From Rhizobiales bacterium TMED25 (GTDB lineage Bacteria > Pseudomonadota > Alphaproteobacteria > Rhizobiales > TMED25), in NCBI GenBank assembly GCA_002168075.1, contig NHCE01000010.1, positions 62,001 to 126,000 on the forward strand: DNA of 64,000 bases. Reading direction: 5' to 3'. Below the pieces are notes generated by a model, which was given only the letters and a program-made list of their open reading frames with translations, was not told where the DNA came from and searched no databases. A program made the position numbers and the translations under genes. This document shows positions 22,417 to 36,354 of the stretch, piece by piece. Position 1 is the stretch's first letter. Each line of letters begins with the position of its first letter.

Positions 22417-22490
22417 TGGGGCGTAGCCAAGCGGTAAGGCATCGGGTTTTGATCCCGTGATCGCAGGTTCGAATCCTGCCGCCCCAGCCA
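22417..22490 (+). tRNA. tRNA-Gln (anticodon TTG)
   Basis: The acceptor stem TGGGGCG pairs with CGCCCCA, followed by G73 and an encoded CCA at 22488-22490. The D-arm is AGCCAAGCGGTAAGGC. The anticodon loop TTTTGAT (22447-22453) carries TTG at 22449-22451, and the T-arm holds GCAGG-TTCGAAT-CCTGC. U1-A72 and the loop match bacterial tRNA-Gln. The outermost anticodon-stem pair (27-43) is T-T, a small oddity. It is the only intact RNA gene I found. Confidence 0.95.
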
Positions 22491-27484: not shown

Positions 27485-28684
27485 TTACATTTTTTTGTAT
27501 TTTTGCGCTTCCTCGGAACCACTTGTTGCACTTCCTTCAGAATATGAATGTGCACCAGTTCCTGCTAATTTACCATCTTTAACAATTGTGTACTCATTTC
27601 TCACTTCTTTATTTCCCATGAAACATTCGAGTATTTCTCTAACACCAGCTGCATATCTTGTTTGTGCAGATAATGAAGTACCTGAAGTATGGGGTGTCAT
27701 TCCATGATTTGGCATTGTTCGCCAAATATGATCATTTGGTGCCGGTTGTGGGAACCAAACATCACCTGCATAACCACTCAACTGGCCTGATTTAAGTGCA
27801 GACGCAATGGCTTCTCTGTTACAAATTTTCCCTCTTGCAGTATTTACAATATATGCACCTTTTTTCATTTTATTTATTAATTCTGTATCAAAAAGGTTTT
27901 CTGTTTCTGGATGTAATGGGCAATTTATTGTAACAACATCACAAACTGCAACCATAGATTCAACAGTTTCGTGAAATGTTAAATTAAGTTCTTTTTCAAT
28001 AGACTCTGGCAGTCTATGCCTATCAAAGTAGTGTAAATGCACATCAAAAGGCTTCATCTTTCTTAGAGCATCAAGTCCAATTCGACCAGCGGCAACAGTT
28101 CCGATATGCATCCCTTCAACGTCATAAGATCTTTGAACAGCATCGGCAATATTCCAACCACCTTCATTAACTATTCTGTGTTGGTTATGGTAATCTCTAA
28201 CTAATGATAAAATCATCATAACAATATGTTCTGCAACTGATCTTGAGTTGCAATAAGTTACTTCAAAAACATCAATATTATTGTCCATTGCAGCTTGTAA
28301 ATCAACATGATCTGAACCAATACCTGCTGTAATAGCAAGTTTAAGATTCTTGGCACTATCTATTTTTTCTCTTGTAAGGTAAAAAGGGAAAAATGGCTGA
28401 GATATTACAACATCTGCATCTTTTATATGATGGTTTGCTTCGCAATTATCGCCATCTTTGTCTGAAGTGACAACCAGTTCATGTCCATTTTCCTCAAGGA
28501 ATTTTCGCAGTCCCAGCTCTCCTGAAACACAACCAAGTAATTCGCCAGGGTTAAAGTCAATATTTTCTGGTGTTGGTAAAGTCTGTCCATCTGGATATCC
28601 AGTAAGTTTTGGTAGTTCAGCTAGTGGATAATTTTTTGGCATTCCGCCCTTTGGATCGTCATATAAGATACATAATACTTTCAT
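27485..28684 (-). CDS. fdh: NAD-dependent formate dehydrogenase (metal-free type)
   Basis: Oxidises formate to CO2 with reduction of NAD, in the cytoplasm and without molybdenum or iron-sulphur centres. The 399-residue protein follows the numbering of the well-studied Pseudomonas enzyme: Asn146 (YCNSRSVAEH), the nucleotide loop VAAGRIG near 198-203, Asp221 (YFDRHR, preference for NAD over NADP), Arg284 (NTARGK), Gln313 (FPQPAP) and His332 (TPHTSGTS). All catalytic residues are present. The last codons contain an A7 run (27490-27496) just before the stop, and the monooxygenase frame overlaps this end. It heads a minus-strand unit pointing away from the formyl-CoA operon at 29349. Confidence 0.96.
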   Translation of the reverse strand: MKVLCILYDDPKGGMPKNYPLAELPKLTGYPDGQTLPTPENIDFNPGELLGCVSGELGLRKFLEENGHELVVTSDKDGDNCEANHHIKDADVVISQPFFPFYLTREKIDSAKNLKLAITAGIGSDHVDLQAAMDNNIDVFEVTYCNSRSVAEHIVMMILSLVRDYHNQHRIVNEGGWNIADAVQRSYDVEGMHIGTVAAGRIGLDALRKMKPFDVHLHYFDRHRLPESIEKELNLTFHETVESMVAVCDVVTINCPLHPETENLFDTELINKMKKGAYIVNTARGKICNREAIASALKSGQLSGYAGDVWFPQPAPNDHIWRTMPNHGMTPHTSGTSLSAQTRYAAGVREILECFMGNKEVRNEYTIVKDGKLAGTGAHSYSEGSATSGSEEAQKYKKM

Positions 28685-29348: not shown

Positions 29349-29663
29349 ATGATATTTGATCACAGAACCTACACAATACAACCCGGAAAAACAAATGAAT
29401 ATGTTAAAATATTTGAAGAATTTGCCTATCCGATCGCTAAAAAACATGGGTTAGAACTTACAGCATATTTTGTAAGTAAAGTAGGCCGCCTAAATCAAGT
29501 TGTCCATATATGGCAATATAATGATATTATGGAATTTGAAACACTTAGGGAAAAAAGAGATGCCGACCCTGCATGGACTTTATATAGATCCAAGATTGCT
29601 GGTATGATTGTGAATCAGGAAGATAAGTTAATGGTTGGGGCTAATTTTTCTCCTATAAAATAA
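29349..29663 (+). CDS. NIPSNAP-family protein
   Basis: A 104-residue dimeric alpha/beta-barrel-type protein of the NIPSNAP family, recognised from IFDHRTYTIQPGKTNEYVKIFE at the start and VVHIWQYNDIMEFETLR followed by the short helix RDADPAW. The biochemical role is unknown in bacteria; NIPSNAPs are often first or last in catabolic operons. It is the first gene of the plus-strand formyl-CoA unit, 33 bases before the thiamine enzyme. The 105 bases upstream are shared with the divergent HPP gene and should hold the operon promoter. Confidence 0.85.
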   Translation: MIFDHRTYTIQPGKTNEYVKIFEEFAYPIAKKHGLELTAYFVSKVGRLNQVVHIWQYNDIMEFETLREKRDADPAWTLYRSKIAGMIVNQEDKLMVGANFSPIK

Positions 29664-29696: not shown

Positions 29697-31424
29697 ATGG
29701 CAACATCAACTGAAGATATTCTGAAGAAAAGAAATCAAAAAAAAGGCTTTATTACAGGCGGTCATTTAGTTGCTCGTGCCCTAAAAAATGAAGGGGTCGA
29801 TACAATATTCACTCTTTGCGGAGGGCACATAATAGATATTTATGATGGCTGTATTGAAGAAGGAATAAAGATTATTGATTTTAGGCATGAACAGACCGCA
29901 GCTCATGCTGCTGATGGTTATGCAAGACAAACAGGAAAACTTGGGTGCTTAATTACAACTGCAGGACCAGGATTTACAAATGCAATTACAGGTATTGCAA
30001 CTGCTTTTAGATCAGAAAGTCCAGTACTTCATATTGGTGGGCAAAGTGCATTATCACAGTGGAAAATGGGAGGTTTACAAGAATTACCTCATGTCGAAAT
30101 ACTCAAGCCAATAACAAAGTTTGCATCAACGGTTATGTCAACAGAAAGAGTTGCAGAAATGGTTGCAATGGCTGCAAGGGAGTGTTTTAAAGGAGCATGT
30201 GGACCATCTTATCTTGAAATTCCAAGAGATGTTTTAGATAAGGAGATACCCATCGAAAATGCTAAAATACCAGAAAAATCAATGTATAGGGCATCAACGC
30301 ATACGCAAGCAGACCCTAAAGATATTGAAAATCTTGTAGAAATATTATCCAAATCTGAGAGGCCTGCAGTATTATTTGGACAGCAAGTTTGGCAATCAAG
30401 AAGCCATATAGAGGCTAATAGATTTGTTAAGGATTTAATGATACCGGCCTATACAAATGGAGCTAGCCGTGGAATGATAGACAGTAATTCACCCTACTCA
30501 TTTGATAGGACAAGAGGGGATGCATTTAAAGATGCAGATCTACTAATGATTGTTGGAACACCATTTGATTTTAGAATGGGATATGGTGGGCGAATATCAA
30601 AAGATATTAAATTAATCCAAATTGATCAGGACTATTCAAATATTGGAAAAAATAGAGATATAGATATTGGACTTACAGGTCATCCTGGTACAATAATGCT
30701 ACAAATTATAAATAAAATGAAAGATGTTTATAGCAAAGAAATAAAAGATAAAAGAAGTTTGTGGATTAAAAGTCTTAATGTAAAGGAAGATGAAAAATAT
30801 AAAAAATTACTTCCAATTTTTACAAATGACTCCACTCCAATACACCCATATCGAGTCGCCTATGAACTGAATGAGTTTCTTAATGATGATACTATTTTTA
30901 TAGGAGATGGTGGTGATGTTGTAACTATTTCGGCTCAAGCTGTGCGACCTCGAAACCCAGGACAATGGATGGATCCAGGAGCTTTGGGAAGCTTAGGTGT
31001 CGGAACTGGCTTCGCACTCTCTGCCAAGCTCGCAAACCCAAATAAAGAGGTGCTTTGCTATTATGGAGATGGTTCTTTTGGTATGACAGCCTTTGATATG
31101 GAGACTGCTGACCGGTTTGGTTTACCATTCATTGCAGTTATTGGAAATAATTCAGCAATGAATCAAATAAGATATGGTCAATTAGCTAAATATGGACAGC
31201 AAAAGGGTGATATTGCTAATAAGCTGGGTGATATGGAATTCTCAAAATTTACTAGCCTATGGGGTGGGCTCGGCCTTGATGTTAAAGACCCTAATAAAAT
31301 ACAATCTGCATTGGTAGAAGCAAGAAAATTTGTCAAAGAAAATAGAAAGTCAGCTATTGTAAATATTTGGGTAGATCCGAATGAGTATGCCCCTGGAACT
31401 AAAGCCCAAACTATGTATAAATGA
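29697..31424 (+). CDS. Thiamine-diphosphate enzyme, 2-hydroxyacyl-CoA lyase / oxalyl-CoA decarboxylase-like
   Basis: A 575-residue member of the pyruvate-oxidase-like ThDP family. Glu65 in DFRHEQTAAHAADG is the ThDP-activating glutamate, and GDGS at 457-460 with NN at 484-485 binds the diphosphate via Mg. Position next to frc suggests oxalyl-CoA decarboxylase, which turns oxalyl-CoA into formyl-CoA + CO2. But the active-site segment at 125-134, GGLQELPHVE, lacks the Tyr-Glu pair of that enzyme and resembles the Phe-Gln-Glu pattern of 2-hydroxyacyl-CoA lyase, which cleaves 2-hydroxyacyl-CoA to formyl-CoA plus an aldehyde. Either way the CoA product would be formyl-CoA. An acetolactate synthase is unlikely because no small subunit is near. 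The next gene begins 11 bases later behind GGAG. Confidence 0.75.
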   Translation: MATSTEDILKKRNQKKGFITGGHLVARALKNEGVDTIFTLCGGHIIDIYDGCIEEGIKIIDFRHEQTAAHAADGYARQTGKLGCLITTAGPGFTNAITGIATAFRSESPVLHIGGQSALSQWKMGGLQELPHVEILKPITKFASTVMSTERVAEMVAMAARECFKGACGPSYLEIPRDVLDKEIPIENAKIPEKSMYRASTHTQADPKDIENLVEILSKSERPAVLFGQQVWQSRSHIEANRFVKDLMIPAYTNGASRGMIDSNSPYSFDRTRGDAFKDADLLMIVGTPFDFRMGYGGRISKDIKLIQIDQDYSNIGKNRDIDIGLTGHPGTIMLQIINKMKDVYSKEIKDKRSLWIKSLNVKEDEKYKKLLPIFTNDSTPIHPYRVAYELNEFLNDDTIFIGDGGDVVTISAQAVRPRNPGQWMDPGALGSLGVGTGFALSAKLANPNKEVLCYYGDGSFGMTAFDMETADRFGLPFIAVIGNNSAMNQIRYGQLAKYGQQKGDIANKLGDMEFSKFTSLWGGLGLDVKDPNKIQSALVEARKFVKENRKSAIVNIWVDPNEYAPGTKAQTMYK

Positions 31425-31435
31425 GGAGCTAAGTA

Positions 31436-32686
31436 ATGGAAGCGTTAAAAGGCATAACAATACTAGATTTTACACATGTTCAATCAGGACCAACTTGCAC
31501 ACAACTACTTGCATGGTTTGGGGCTAATGTAATAAAAATTGAAAGACCAGGCGGTGGTGATATTACAAGATCACAATTACGTGATTTAGATGGAGTTGAC
31601 TCACTTTACTTTACGATGTTGAACCATAACAAGAAATCTATAACGCTAAATGTTAAGGACTCTTCTGGTAAGCAGGTTCTAGAAGATTTAATTAAAAAAT
31701 CTGATGTGTTCGTAGAAAACTTTGCACCAGGCACAATTGAAAGAATGGGTTATGGGTGGGAAGAAATACAAAAAATTAATCCAAAAATTATTTTAGCATC
31801 AGTAAAAGGATTTGGTCCGGGACCTTATGAGGAATGTAAAGTCTACGAAAATATTGCTCAATGTGCAGGGGGAGCTGCATCAACTACTGGTTTTCTCGAT
31901 GGACCTCCACTTGTCACCGGAGCGCAAATCGGTGACTCTGGAACAGGACTTCATCTCGCACTTGGGATAGTAACAGCATTATTCCAGAGGGAAAAATCTG
32001 GAAGAGGGCAAAGAGTAGATGTCGCAATGCAAGATGGTGTTGTTAATTTATGTAGAGTTAAACTAAGAGACTATCAGAGATTGAAAAGTGGCCCATTGAG
32101 AGAATATAGCCAATATGGAAAGGGAATACCATTTACTGATACTACACCGAGGGCTGGAAACGACTCGGGGGGTGGGCAGCCTGGTTGGATCCTAAAATGT
32201 AAAGGGTGGGAGGATGATCCTGATGCCTATGTTTACTTTATAACTCAAGCACCGGTTTGGGGTAAGATTTGTAATGTTATCGGCAAAGAAGAATGGTTAG
32301 AAGATTCGGGATACTCGACACCCGAAGCTCGACTCGATAAACTCGAATTTATCTTTGACACGATTGAAGAATGGACAAAAACAAAATCCAAACATGAAGT
32401 TATTTCTATTTGTGACCCGCTAGGTATCCCATGTGGACCTATATTATCCATGAAGGAAATTGCAAATGATGAGTCATTAAAAGCGACAGGTACAATTGTT
32501 GAGGTAGACCATCCAATCAGAGGTAAGTATACTACTGTTGGATGTCCGATAAAACTATCGGACTCGAAGGCTGATGTTAAAAGATCACCTCTGTTAGGTG
32601 AGCATAATGATGAAATTCTGAGTGATATTTTAAATTATGATGATGAAAAAATAAATAAAATTAAACAATCAGAAGCGATGAAGTGA
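31436..32686 (+). CDS. frc: Formyl-CoA:oxalate CoA-transferase (class III)
   Basis: Moves CoA between formyl-CoA and a free acid such as oxalate, releasing formate. It resembles the Oxalobacter formigenes enzyme along its whole length: [14 protein letters not shown] with Gln16, [34 protein letters not shown], the catalytic Asp167 in AQIGDSGTG (Asp169 in Oxalobacter), the glycine-rich loop SGGGQPGW and [12 protein letters not shown]. Length is 416 against 428. It follows the thiamine enzyme by 11 bases and precedes the formyltransferase-like gene by 10. This is the firmest anchor for calling the operon a formyl-CoA pathway. The acceptor acid might differ from oxalate. Confidence 0.93.
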
Positions 32687-32696
32687 TCCCAAATAA

Positions 32697-33605
32697 ATGA
32701 AGATAGTTTTACATGGTCAACAGGCATTTGGTAGTGCCGTATTGGATAGTCTAATAAGTAATAACGAAAATGTTATAGCTGTATGCTCGGCTCCAAATAA
32801 AGATAATAAGAAAATGGATCCCCTTGTTGAAAATGCTATAAAAAATGAAATCCCAGTATATCAACCTGAAAGTTGGAAAACGGAAGAAGCCTTTGATCTG
32901 ATGAAATCTTTAGATGCAGATCTATGTATTATGGCTTATGTACTTTTGATTGTTCCAAGTAGAATTTTAGATCTACCCAAATATGGCTCAATTCAATACC
33001 ACCCATCACTTTTACCAAATCATAGAGGTCCATCTTCAATAAATTGGCCTATTTCAATGGGTTCAAAGACTACTGGAATTAGTGTATTTTGGCCAGATGA
33101 TGGCCTCGATACGGGGCCAATACTCATACAAAAGCAATGTGATATTGATGAAAATGAAACACTGGGTGAATTATATTTTAATAAATTATTTCCAATGGGT
33201 ATTCAAGCAATAGAGGAGTCAATTCAATTGATTAAGGACGGTCATGCTCCAAGAATTATTCAAAATCTTGAAGATGGGTCATATGAAAGTTGGTTTGGAA
33301 AGTCGCAAGCACAAATAGAATGGTCAAAAGATATTAACGTAGTTCATGCATTAATTAGAGCAGGCGACCCTCAGCCAGGGGCATGGTCAATATTGAACGG
33401 AATAGAAGTAAAGTTATACGAGAGTATGATTTTTTCAAATGAAGATTCCGATCCAGGCCGGATATATGGAGTTGAAGAAAATTTATTAATCGGCACTAAG
33501 AATGGAATATTATCCTGCAATAAGATTAGGTCAGATGGAAACAAAGTTATGGCTTGCGATTATTGTAAGGATAATAATATTCAAATTGGTGATTATTTTA
33601 AATAA
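32697..33605 (+). CDS. 10-formyltetrahydrofolate hydrolase/formyltransferase-like protein (stand-alone)
   Basis: A 302-residue protein of the formyltransferase fold that resembles the N-terminal domain of animal 10-formyl-THF dehydrogenase (ALDH1L1), not PurU (no ACT domain) and not ordinary methionyl-tRNA formyltransferase. Catalytic His102 is in YHPSLLPNHRGPSSINW and Asp138 in DDGLDTG; Gln100 stands where Fmt has asparagine. The C-terminal ~100 residues match the oxidoreductase-linked Fmt_C-like subdomain. It lies between frc and fhs. Predicted reactions are hydrolysis of 10-formyl-THF to THF + formate, or formyl transfer between folate and another carrier; I cannot tell which from sequence. 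Confidence 0.75.
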   Translation: MKIVLHGQQAFGSAVLDSLISNNENVIAVCSAPNKDNKKMDPLVENAIKNEIPVYQPESWKTEEAFDLMKSLDADLCIMAYVLLIVPSRILDLPKYGSIQYHPSLLPNHRGPSSINWPISMGSKTTGISVFWPDDGLDTGPILIQKQCDIDENETLGELYFNKLFPMGIQAIEESIQLIKDGHAPRIIQNLEDGSYESWFGKSQAQIEWSKDINVVHALIRAGDPQPGAWSILNGIEVKLYESMIFSNEDSDPGRIYGVEENLLIGTKNGILSCNKIRSDGNKVMACDYCKDNNIQIGDYFK

Positions 33606-33626: not shown

Positions 33627-35303
33627 ATGACAACAGATATTGAAATTGCAAGATTAGCAAAACCAAAAAAAATAAGTGAAGTTGCAAACAAATTAGGTAT
33701 TCCAGAAGATAAATTATTTAATTATGGTAATTATAAAGCGAAGATTTCAATTGATTACTTAGATAGTTTGAATAGTCGATCCAATGGAAAGCTAATACTT
33801 GTTACGGCGATTACTCCAACACCTGCCGGGGAAGGGAAGACAACCACTACAGTTGGTCTAGGAGATGGTCTAAATAAGCTTGGTAAAAAAGCAACAATTT
33901 GTATTAGGGAACCATCTCTTGGTCCTTGTTTTGGAATGAAAGGTGGTGCAGCAGGAGGTGGGTACTCACAAGTAATTCCCATGGAGGATATAAATTTACA
34001 TTTTACAGGCGATTTTCACGCAATTGGTATAGCTCATAATTTATTATGTGCAATGGTTGATAATCATATCTATTGGGGCAATAGCCTAAATATTGATACA
34101 AGAAGAATTTCAATCAGAAGAGCTCTTGATATGAATGAGCGCTCACTAAGAGAAATTGTTTCATCGCTTGGCGGTGTTGCGAATGGTTATCCCCGTAGTG
34201 ATGGTTTTGATATTACCGTTGCCTCAGAAGTCATGGCTATATTCTGTCTTTCTAGTAGTCTATCGGAATTAACAGACCGACTTGGTAGAATAGTTGTTGG
34301 TTACACAAGGGAAAGAGATCCAATTACAGCTAGCATGATCAGTGCAAATGATGCCATGGCTGTGCTCTTAAAAGACGCACTCATGCCAAATATAGTGCAG
34401 ACTTTGGAAGGCAGTCCAGCTTTAGTTCATGGAGGACCTTTTGCAAATATAGCTCATGGTTGTAATTCAATAATAGCTACAAAAGCGGCTCTTAAGCTAT
34501 CAGATTATGTGATCACTGAGGCTGGTTTTGGAGCTGACTTAGGTGCTGAGAAGTTTTTTAATATCAAATGTAGACAATTAGATACAAAGCCATCAGTTGC
34601 AGTCGTTGTCGCAACAGTAAGAGCTCTTAAGATGCATGGTGGTATTGAGAAAGATCAGCTTTCAAAGGAAAATATTGATGCTGTACGTCTTGGATGCTCA
34701 AACCTAATACAGCACATTGAAAATATATCAAAATTTGGTGTACCTGTTGTTGTATGTGTTAATAAATTCACAAAAGATACTGAAAATGAAATTGCAGAAA
34801 TAGGCAAGGTTTTATTAGAAAATGGTGTTGATGCCAAAGTTATACTTTCCAATCACTGGGCAAAAGGTGGTGAAGGCATTCTTGACTTATCTAACGAAAT
34901 AATTGAAATTTGTAGCAAGGAGCAATTAGATTTTAAATTTTTATATGATAAAGAAAATTCAATTATGGATAAGATAAGTGTCATATCAAAGGAAATATAC
35001 AGAGCGAATAATGTACATTTTTCTAAGAAATCATTGACACAGATAAAGGATATGGAGAAAAATGGGTTTAGCTCACTTCCCATTTGTATGGCTAAAACAC
35101 AATACTCATTTTCTACCGATCCAACTGTCAAAAATAATCCTCAAGAACATGATATAGAAATAAAAGAACTTCGGCTCTCTGCCGGCGCCGGGTTCATCGT
35201 TGCAATATCTGGCGATATTATGACGATGCCAGGACTACCAAGAGTGCCAGCAGCTGAAAAGATATATCTTGATGATCAGGGTAAGGTTGAAGGATTATTC
35301 TAA
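33627..35303 (+). CDS. fhs: Formate-tetrahydrofolate ligase
   Basis: Joins formate to tetrahydrofolate at the cost of ATP, giving 10-formyl-THF for purine, formyl-Met and C1 metabolism; the reaction is reversible. The 558-residue length is typical, and the P-loop-like [13 protein letters not shown] lies at residues 63-75. Other clear blocks are [22 protein letters not shown] and [13 protein letters not shown], and [15 protein letters not shown] at the C-terminus. It sits 21 bases downstream of the formyltransferase-like gene and 16 upstream of the PanE-family gene. With fdh nearby, the cell could route formate either to CO2 or to folate. Confidence 0.97.
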
Positions 35304-35319
35304 ATAACTTGGAGCTATA

Positions 35320-36354
35320 ATGGAAAAAATATGTATTTTAGGTGGAGGTGCAATAGGATCTTGTGTTTCAGCGTCATTAACTGAAGCAAAATTGGATGTG
35401 TGTCTTGTTGATCAGTGGGCAGCTCATATAGAAAAAATAAGAATTGATGGATTAGATGTCATAACCACCAAAGGAAAAACAAATACAAAGATAAAATCTT
35501 ACCACTTATCAGATTTTGCTCAATTACAAGATAAATTTGATTATATTTTTATGGCAGTTAAGGCTTACGATACCCAATGGGTTGCAAAATTTGCATCTGT
35601 ATATTTAAAGGAAGATGGAGTATTAATTGGCTTACAAAATGCATACAATGACGATAAAAATGTCGAAATGATAGGAAAAGATAAGGTGATTGGAGCTGTT
35701 GTTGAGTTAAGTTGTGAGATTTTCCAGCCCGGAATTGTGCAAAGAAATACTATCCCAACTGGAACATGGTTTGCTGTTGGTGAACTGGATGGGACAATAA
35801 CACCCCGCCTCAGAAATATTCAAAAGATAATGTTAAATGTTGGAAAATGTGATTTAACTGATAACATATATGGGGCTAAATGGACAAAGCTAATAGCAAA
35901 TTCAATGACATGTCCTTTTTCATCTCTAAGCCTTAAAAACTGGGAAGCAATGAAGCTGCCGGGTATGTTTGAATTTTCAGTTGGGGTTGGCAAAGAGTCA
36001 TTTAAGGTAGGTAAAGCACTAGGATATATGATTGAGCCATTATTTGGTCTAACTAATGAAGAAATTGGAAATGCAGGTGAAAATGCTGCCGAACTTGTAA
36101 TGAAAAAAATGGTACAAGACGTTGGTCCAAATGCTAGAACGCATGCAGCACAAGACCATGTAAAAGGAAGAAGAAGCGAAATTGAATTTATCAATGGAAA
36201 AGTTTCACAAGAGGGCAGGAGATTAGGTATTCCAACCCCTTTTAATGATGCTGTATGTGAGGTAGCACGTATGACACATAGTGGTGAAATACAACTTGAT
36301 CCTGATAATGTTAAACTTTTATATCAAAAACTTGAAAAAATATTAAATAAGTAA
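35320..36354 (+). CDS. PanE/ApbA-family 2-dehydropantoate 2-reductase-like protein
   Basis: An NAD(P)H-dependent reductase of the ketopantoate reductase family. The Rossmann motif LGGGAIGSCVSASL begins at residue 7, and the catalytic lysine lies in GAKWTKLIANS with the conserved asparagine. The 344-residue protein is longer than E. coli PanE (303). In pantothenate synthesis it would reduce 2-dehydropantoate to pantoate, the precursor of CoA. As the last gene of the formyl-CoA unit it may instead reduce a 2-oxo acid to the 2-hydroxy acid that feeds the thiamine lyase; that is inference from position. It meets cinA tail to tail with one base between. Confidence 0.8.
   Translation: MEKICILGGGAIGSCVSASLTEAKLDVCLVDQWAAHIEKIRIDGLDVITTKGKTNTKIKSYHLSDFAQLQDKFDYIFMAVKAYDTQWVAKFASVYLKEDGVLIGLQNAYNDDKNVEMIGKDKVIGAVVELSCEIFQPGIVQRNTIPTGTWFAVGELDGTITPRLRNIQKIMLNVGKCDLTDNIYGAKWTKLIANSMTCPFSSLSLKNWEAMKLPGMFEFSVGVGKESFKVGKALGYMIEPLFGLTNEEIGNAGENAAELVMKKMVQDVGPNARTHAAQDHVKGRRSEIEFINGKVSQEGRRLGIPTPFNDAVCEVARMTHSGEIQLDPDNVKLLYQKLEKILNK

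Follow-up and report, generated by a model that had tools for sequence, protein, structure and literature searches.

What does a stand-alone formyltransferase do between a gene of formyl-CoA metabolism and a gene of formyl-folate metabolism? The window, that is, the whole 64,000-nucleotide stretch of DNA from the marine Rhizobiales bacterium TMED25 that was analysed, contains such a gene (FT; 32697..33605, + strand), which starts with ATG, has an intact reading frame for 302 aa and was characterized by Pfam, PDB relatives, trees, residues and a structural model. It belongs to a same-strand run of six genes with short gaps, which begins with a NIPSNAP-family protein (29349..29663, +; PF07978) and continues with a ThDP enzyme in the place of oxalyl-CoA decarboxylase (TPPa; 29697..31424, +), frc for formyl-CoA:oxalate CoA-transferase (31436..32686, +; TIGR03253, 698 bits versus a cut-off of 504), FT, fhs for formate--THF ligase (33627..35303, +; PRK13505, 888 bits versus a cut-off of 652) and, as the last gene, a ketopantoate-reductase-family protein (KPR; 35320..36354, +; PF02558/PF08546). 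FT is separated from frc by 10 nt and from fhs by 21 nt. The nearest solved chains of the Frc protein were E. coli YfdW and formyl-CoA transferases, and Fhs was the sole PF01268 match in the genome (1.42 Mb, 98% complete, 5% contaminated). A gene for NAD-dependent formate dehydrogenase (27485..28684, −; PRK07574, 662 bits versus a cut-off of 329) is a near divergent neighbour. The search for RNA families in the window returned a tRNA at 22417 and nothing else, and scans for promoters and terminators showed no excess over shuffled sequence (35 vs 31.0 and 2 vs 4.3, respectively). The earlier note had described FT as a stand-alone homologue of the ALDH1L1 hydrolase domain lying between frc and fhs, and the reading frame, the Pfam matches, the trees and the Frc and Fhs scores all agree with that description.

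The arrangement was conserved in the family of the window's genome. FT was found in 13 of the 14 family genomes, the window's included (the 14th is 75% complete), and the order NIPSNAP-TPP-frc-FT-fhs-KPR was common to all 13, with FT always between frc and fhs; the NIPSNAP gene was present in the window and 12 family loci, truncated by the contig end in one, and the KPR gene likewise in the window and 12 family loci. In the second genus (two genomes), a formate dehydrogenase pair is inserted between fhs and KPR (L044:1872-6294, also L045/L062), of which the large subunit scored 746 bits versus an Fdh-alpha cut-off of 666 and the partner is NuoF-like; in the first genus, by contrast, the NAD-dependent formate dehydrogenase is next door to the run, not inside it. 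The nearest relatives in a one-genome-per-species scan bore the names OCS116 cluster, Rhodobiaceae, Rhizobiales, Hyphomicrobiales and others.

Sequence comparison indicated that FT belongs to the group of the FDH (ALDH1L1) hydrolase domain and not to Fmt. FT matched PF00551 (Formyl_trans_N; E 8.9e-30, 104.2 bits versus a gathering score of 26.1) and PF02911 (Formyl_trans_C; E 2.1e-15, 57.2 bits versus a gathering score of 21.1), and no third Pfam family was detected at E 0.001, hence no ACT, carrier, aldehyde-dehydrogenase or enoyl-CoA-hydratase-like domain. Its top solved relatives were hydrolase domains of 10-formyl-THF dehydrogenase (4qpd, E 8e-62), with Fmt behind (1fmt, E 3.3e-39), and its scores were below the cut-offs of both the Fmt model TIGR00460 (146.5 versus 201.5 bits) and the PurU model TIGR00655 (23.8 versus 286 bits). 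The genome encodes three PF00551 proteins, namely FT, a 319-aa Fmt-like protein (C1:68314) and a 207-aa frame (C6:286139) taken as PurN. A tree of 58 proteins (39 of the 95 FT rows), whose bootstrap was incompletely settled and whose HoxX branch was very long, grouped FT, the FDH hydrolase domain and HoxX with support of 98/99, apart from Fmt, Arn, PurN and PurU. The second tree, from which HoxX, PurN and PurU were dropped because of the long HoxX branch (35 of the 95 FT rows), united FT and the FDH domain with support of 100/99, the branch being 1.53 changes per column long. In both trees the nine Fmt rows formed one side of a branch that excludes FT (93/81 and 97/90, respectively). FT as a single clade separate from the FDH row, of which there was one, obtained 57/89 in the first tree and 26% of bootstrap trees in the second, and FDH may be sister to FT or lie inside it.

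A tree with Fmt, PurU, ALDH1L1 and ArnA-type proteins had been proposed in the earlier note, and the grouping with the ALDH1L1 domain is its outcome. The same note had named two findings that would speak against its reading, namely the lack of any other fmt gene and a place of FT within the Fmt clade; instead, Fmt proper is encoded elsewhere in the genome (G000:C1:68314) and FT falls outside that clade. A plain duplicate of the housekeeping fmt was ruled out by the Fmt score, the separate Fmt in the genome and both trees.

The fold was less discriminating. The AlphaFold model of FT (pLDDT 95.1, pTM 0.89) retrieved FDH domains first in Foldseek (4qpd, TM 0.90), but VIA Z values of 35.0 for 1fmt and 34.6 for 4qpd amount to a tie, with HypX at Z 22; judged on the predicted model, whole-fold comparison cannot separate FT from Fmt. 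Residues were more informative. His102 and Asp138, to which the earlier note had pointed as conserved, were identical in 95/95 aligned FT proteins, as was Ser104. Position 100, two before the catalytic His, was Gln in 91/95 FT proteins and Cys in 4/95; in a comparison that left out sugar formyltransferases, the same position was Asn in Fmt (9/9), ArnA-type (2/2), PurN (3/3) and PurU (3/3), Ile in zebrafish FDH (Ile104) and A. aeolicus HypX, and Val in C. necator HoxX. Among the rows compared, only FT, the ALDH1L1 domain and HypX/HoxX are without the oxyanion Asn, and the relatives of FT in this Asn-less set, the ALDH1L1 domain and HypX, are those with a pantetheine thiol as acceptor. Conservation of at least 95% was observed at 74 FT positions, of which 29 were common to FDH and Fmt, 19 to FDH only, 8 to Fmt only and 18 to neither, with an FDH row that stops before about FT position 283; 66 positions were invariant across 73 sequences. 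The earlier note had foreseen neither Gln in place of the ALDH1L1 Ile, nor the frc/oxc clusters with FT in many alpha- and gammaproteobacteria, nor the non-canonical ThDP enzyme beside frc.

From the family branch, the conserved residues, the predicted fold and the gene context, we infer the acceptor, activity and direction of FT: it is probably a stand-alone 10-formyl-THF:CoA formyltransferase, which would join the formyl-CoA pool of Frc and Oxc to the folate pool of Fhs. To our knowledge, formyl-CoA is handled by few enzymes, namely Frc, Oxc, 2-hydroxyacyl-CoA lyases and HypX, and FT is, as far as its sequence tells, a stand-alone branch of the FDH/HypX group with a link to frc. The hydrolase domain of ALDH1L1 is its nearest solved relative by sequence (34–36% identity) and shares with it the tree group, the His/Ser/Asp set and the stretches GQ..FG, DPL, RG.S..NW and FW.DDGLDTG; however, FT lacks the carrier and aldehyde-dehydrogenase domains of ALDH1L1, has Gln or Cys in place of Ile104 and sits with frc and fhs. 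Passages of one study report that replacement of Ile104 by Asn in ALDH1L1 left hydrolase activity below 10%, and they draw an added thiol as the first nucleophile in the isolated domain (PMC4388273). The N-domain of HypX/HoxX, which serves CO synthesis for NiFe hydrogenase, shares with FT the fold, the His and Asp, an RGPS..(N/D)W stretch and the missing oxyanion Asn. For HypX, formyl transfer from 10-formyl-THF to CoA was proposed in sections of the 2019 structure paper (PMC6802093) and has since been shown for its N-domain according to portions of a 2025 review (PMC12134894); as far as the open-licence literature was searched, formyl transfer between folate and CoA is described only for HypX.

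Several observations count against transfer to CoA. The HypX N-domain is just 16–18% identical to FT, and the Gln of FT is unlike the hydrophobic Ile or Val of the two thiol-acceptor relatives. In HypX an enoyl-CoA-hydratase-like domain of its own holds CoA and makes CO, whereas FT has no partner domain to hold CoA, and a CoA site in FT is hypothetical; unlike HypX, FT should exchange free formyl-CoA. FT also lies apart from frc in some genomes, and Frc without FT is common, as the following counts show.

Analysis of 240 genomes of the class, in which FT scored at least 243 bits and the next group (presumably Fmt, but with a single contig-end fragment of FT, G191:C150, among its members) at most 134 bits, revealed FT in 17 genomes from 14 families and Frc over its cut-off in 20, with 16 genomes containing both. 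In the remaining FT genome (G084), Frc was matched in part (positions 2–228 of 416) beside a TPPa gene, and Frc occurred in 4 of the 223 genomes without FT; the association was strong, with kinship ignored (Fisher p 2.3e-20). FT adjoined frc in 9/17 of these genomes, among them G191, whose FT is truncated at the end of the contig, and was located elsewhere in 8/17; in G120 FT is away from frc but beside fhs, and G191 has a second FT, also beside fhs. In a sample of 200 genomes of the phylum, FT (at least 210 bits) was found in 4, the window's included, all adjoining frc, and Frc in 12. Frc was thus without FT in 4/20 Frc-bearing genomes of the class and 8/12 of the phylum sample: FT hardly ever occurs without Frc, but Frc often occurs without FT.

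Adjacency was also counted among the wider relatives, for which the best 80 of 437 were used from the one-genome-per-species scan; the family of the window's genome contributed 10 of these 80. By tblastn, frc was directly upstream of FT in 78/80 of these loci with a gap of −3 to 277 nt; one of the other two (L103) is uninformative, with a sequence that starts 78 bases before FT, and the second is a real exception, in which FT (L098:8001-8912) has a GntR regulator and a SucCD-like ligase nearby, while the locus lacks both frc and a ThDP gene. Among the same best 80 of 437, fhs followed within 600 nt downstream in 56/80 loci and in 53 of the 69 with at least 1000 bases downstream, and was not found downstream in 14 loci with at least 2500 bases there. 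Recurrent neighbours in this best 80 of 437 were TctA (at least 46 loci), TctC and TctB (at least 41 each), a GntR-FCD regulator (at least 41) and a CoA ligase similar to SucD and SucC (at least 25 and 20, respectively), besides Usp; these cluster counts are lower bounds, in that crude ORF calling in GC-rich loci let antisense frames displace some real genes, and clusters were named from one representative each, while the adjacency counts come from tblastn instead.

FT is kept in alpha- and gammaproteobacteria, many of which hold it in frc/oxc clusters, and the FT-bearing clusters are, judging by their genes, putative oxalate uptake and breakdown clusters. They share frc, and canonical Oxc in the 11/11 sister loci tested, with the known oxalate frc-oxc clusters of Oxalobacter, Cupriavidus necator and E. 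coli (yfdWU), but FT and fhs are added to them, and the window has TPPa for Oxc. Plasmid pLA6_002 of a marine Paracoccaceae bacterium (L140, CP031587.1) carries genes for a YdfH-type regulator, oxc, frc, FT, fhs, Usp and TctB-TctA, and its FT is annotated fmt_2, methionyl-tRNA formyltransferase; the position where the Tct receptor is expected is annotated argininosuccinate lyase. One paper mentions oxc, frc and a formyltransferase together, and in the passages concerned that formyltransferase is PurT (PMC3720670).

The ThDP enzyme upstream of frc bears on what FT works with. Canonical Oxc was rejected for the product of 29697-31424, which scored 237 bits with TIGR03254 versus a cut-off of 739; its top NCBIfam match was PRK05858, "acetolactate synthase" (425 bits, cut-off 587), followed by 2-hydroxyacyl-CoA lyase (328 bits, cut-off 600), and among the matches listed none of the 12/12 tested proteins of this kind, the window's included, exceeded a family cut-off. 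By contrast, 11/11 tested loci of the Oxc-like kind (of 35 such loci) encode canonical Oxc with 974 to 1019 bits versus 739. In the best 80 of 437 relatives, the ThDP enzyme was window-like (at least 55% identity) in 41 loci, below 40% identity in 35 and missing in 4. In the class sample, TPPa (at least 700 bits) occurred in 12/240 genomes and canonical Oxc in 9/240, with both in none; of the 20 Frc genomes, 11 had TPPa, 8 had Oxc and one had neither, and of the 17 FT genomes, 10 had TPPa and 7 had Oxc. In quick trees built from 76 rows of Frc and 77 rows of FT, the ThDP kind had to change at least 8 times; well-supported branches forced 5 of these changes in the Frc tree and 6 in the FT tree. 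TPPa has Leu-Gln in 38/38 rows where Oxc has Tyr-Glu in 35/35, a pair that we take, by our own mapping, to be Y134/E135 of the Methylorubrum enzyme. These two residues are named for that enzyme in PMC8411744. Since TPPa and Oxc swap at one place, both should serve the same role, presumably the formation of formyl-CoA, and since FT stays while the decarboxylase is swapped, its partner would be formyl-CoA and not one particular decarboxylase. Judging from sequence, TPPa is likely either a second type of oxalyl-CoA decarboxylase or else a lyase of 2-hydroxyacyl-CoAs that feeds the same cycle.

By analogy with the ALDH1L1 domain and HypX, FT would bind folate in its Rossmann domain, Asp138 would activate the thiol of CoA, and His102, held by Ser104, would polarise the formyl group, which would then move between N10 of folate and the sulphur of CoA. 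In one direction, formate and ATP would be converted by Fhs to 10-formyl-THF and by FT to formyl-CoA, after which Frc would swap the CoA to oxalate. The sum of Fhs, FT and Frc would be ATP + CoA + oxalate → oxalyl-CoA + ADP + Pi, with no oxalate ligase; such ATP-driven activation would be of use, since CoA is only recycled in the Frc/Oxc cycle, and the most likely role is that Fhs and FT charge CoA so as to start the cycle and refill it after loss of CoA esters. Priming through FT would not be the sole route, since succinyl-CoA or acetyl-CoA can donate CoA to oxalate according to excerpts of PMC12188714. In the opposite direction, surplus formyl-CoA could be banked as 10-formyl-THF without ATP being spent on Fhs, with oxalyl-CoA coming from another supply such as the SucCD-like ligase of some loci; it is possible that the operon works without ATP in one direction. 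We lean slightly toward transfer from folate to CoA, because fhs is placed with FT and HypX runs that way. A larger claim joins these parts, and we put it at somewhat short of an even chance: FT would be a stand-alone formyl-CoA:THF formyltransferase, the first of its kind, and would reversibly link the CoA-thioester pool to the folate C1 pool; with Fhs and Frc it would provide a three-enzyme, ATP-driven activation of oxalate (and of formate, to formyl-CoA) without an oxalyl-CoA synthetase; the module would have spread in proteobacteria and to at least one plasmid; and the N-domain of animal ALDH1L1 would be a derived relative of this bacterial family.

Other functions were weighed against transfer to CoA. 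The main alternative is that FT is a 10-formyl-THF hydrolase that does the work of PurU, freeing THF and formate for oxidation by formate dehydrogenase, and a small thiol such as CoA may then be just a helper. We consider this unlikely, although the nearest solved relatives are hydrolase domains, formate dehydrogenases are found beside or inside the run, and PurU was over its cut-off in 51/240 class genomes but in 0/17 with FT (Fisher p 0.027, a weak value with kinship ignored), being present in 2/4 of those with Frc but without FT. This absence of PurU suits a hydrolase, or a bridge followed by hydrolysis of formyl-CoA, or chance of lineage. PurU resembles FT in its reaction only if FT is such a hydrolase; in other respects it differs, namely in sequence score, in the ACT domain, which was not found in FT by the Pfam search, and in keeping the Asn (3/3) that FT lacks. 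Moreover, with Fhs as its neighbour a hydrolase would set up a futile cycle that wastes ATP, and a stand-in for PurU is not expected to track Frc (16/17). The interpretation in the earlier note is supported in part: of the functions that it left open, formyl transfer between folate and a different acceptor, namely CoA, is the better fit, and plain hydrolysis the poorer one.

Most characterised members of PF00551 formylate amines, and 18 of the 74 nearly invariant positions are specific to FT, which would be in keeping with formylation of some other acceptor of the pathway, an amine or the thiol of a carrier protein. We regard such an acceptor as quite improbable: the named recurrent genes (frc, Oxc/TPPa, fhs, TctCBA, GntR regulator, SucCD-like ligase and Usp, only part of the clusters being named) include no maker of an amine, and FT lacks the Asn seen in the compared formyltransferases that act on amines. 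A second methionyl-tRNA formyltransferase has in its favour the fmt_2 annotation on pLA6_002 and the full-length match to Fmt, which has the same two domains and a VIA Z of 35, but the score below the Fmt cut-off, the position outside the Fmt clade, the Fmt proper elsewhere in the genome and the replaced catalytic Asn make it highly implausible. It is just as hard to credit that FT is a neutral or decaying passenger of the run. FT is the less conserved protein among farther members of the window's genus (63–65%, versus 85–86% for Frc and 80–81% for TPPa), yet its reading frame is uninterrupted in 80/80 loci (best 80 of 437), 66 of its positions are invariant, and it is retained in two classes, the alpha- and gammaproteobacteria.

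If FT does transfer formyl groups between folate and CoA, this exchange would explain how the Frc cycle is started and refilled in such bacteria, and would open a second way for carbon from oxalate to enter one-carbon metabolism. FT with Fhs would offer synthetic C1 pathways a route that takes formate to formyl-CoA with two enzymes, and the animal ALDH1L1 domain would gain bacterial relatives with a concrete thiol-acceptor reaction for comparison.

Some neighbouring genes showed further variation. The proposal that KPR is the oxalyl-CoA reductase PanE2/ApbA2 was not supported, as no match was obtained at E 1e-10 in 8 Frc-bearing genomes, in a search with no positive control; PanE2/ApbA2 is encoded near frc-oxc in C. 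necator according to passages of PMC7486775. With one and the same model, KPR of the window scored 119 bits versus 451 bits for a ketopantoate-reductase-like protein of locus L063, and a gene of the L063 kind comes after FT in some gammaproteobacterial loci. Two tandem frc copies directly precede FT in G388 (C1:450798-453446), and close frc pairs also occur in two genomes that yielded no FT, G330 and G407. A pterin-4a-carbinolamine dehydratase gene adjoins FT in two members of a single family in which frc is elsewhere (L126:2446-2769 and L130:8267-8593).
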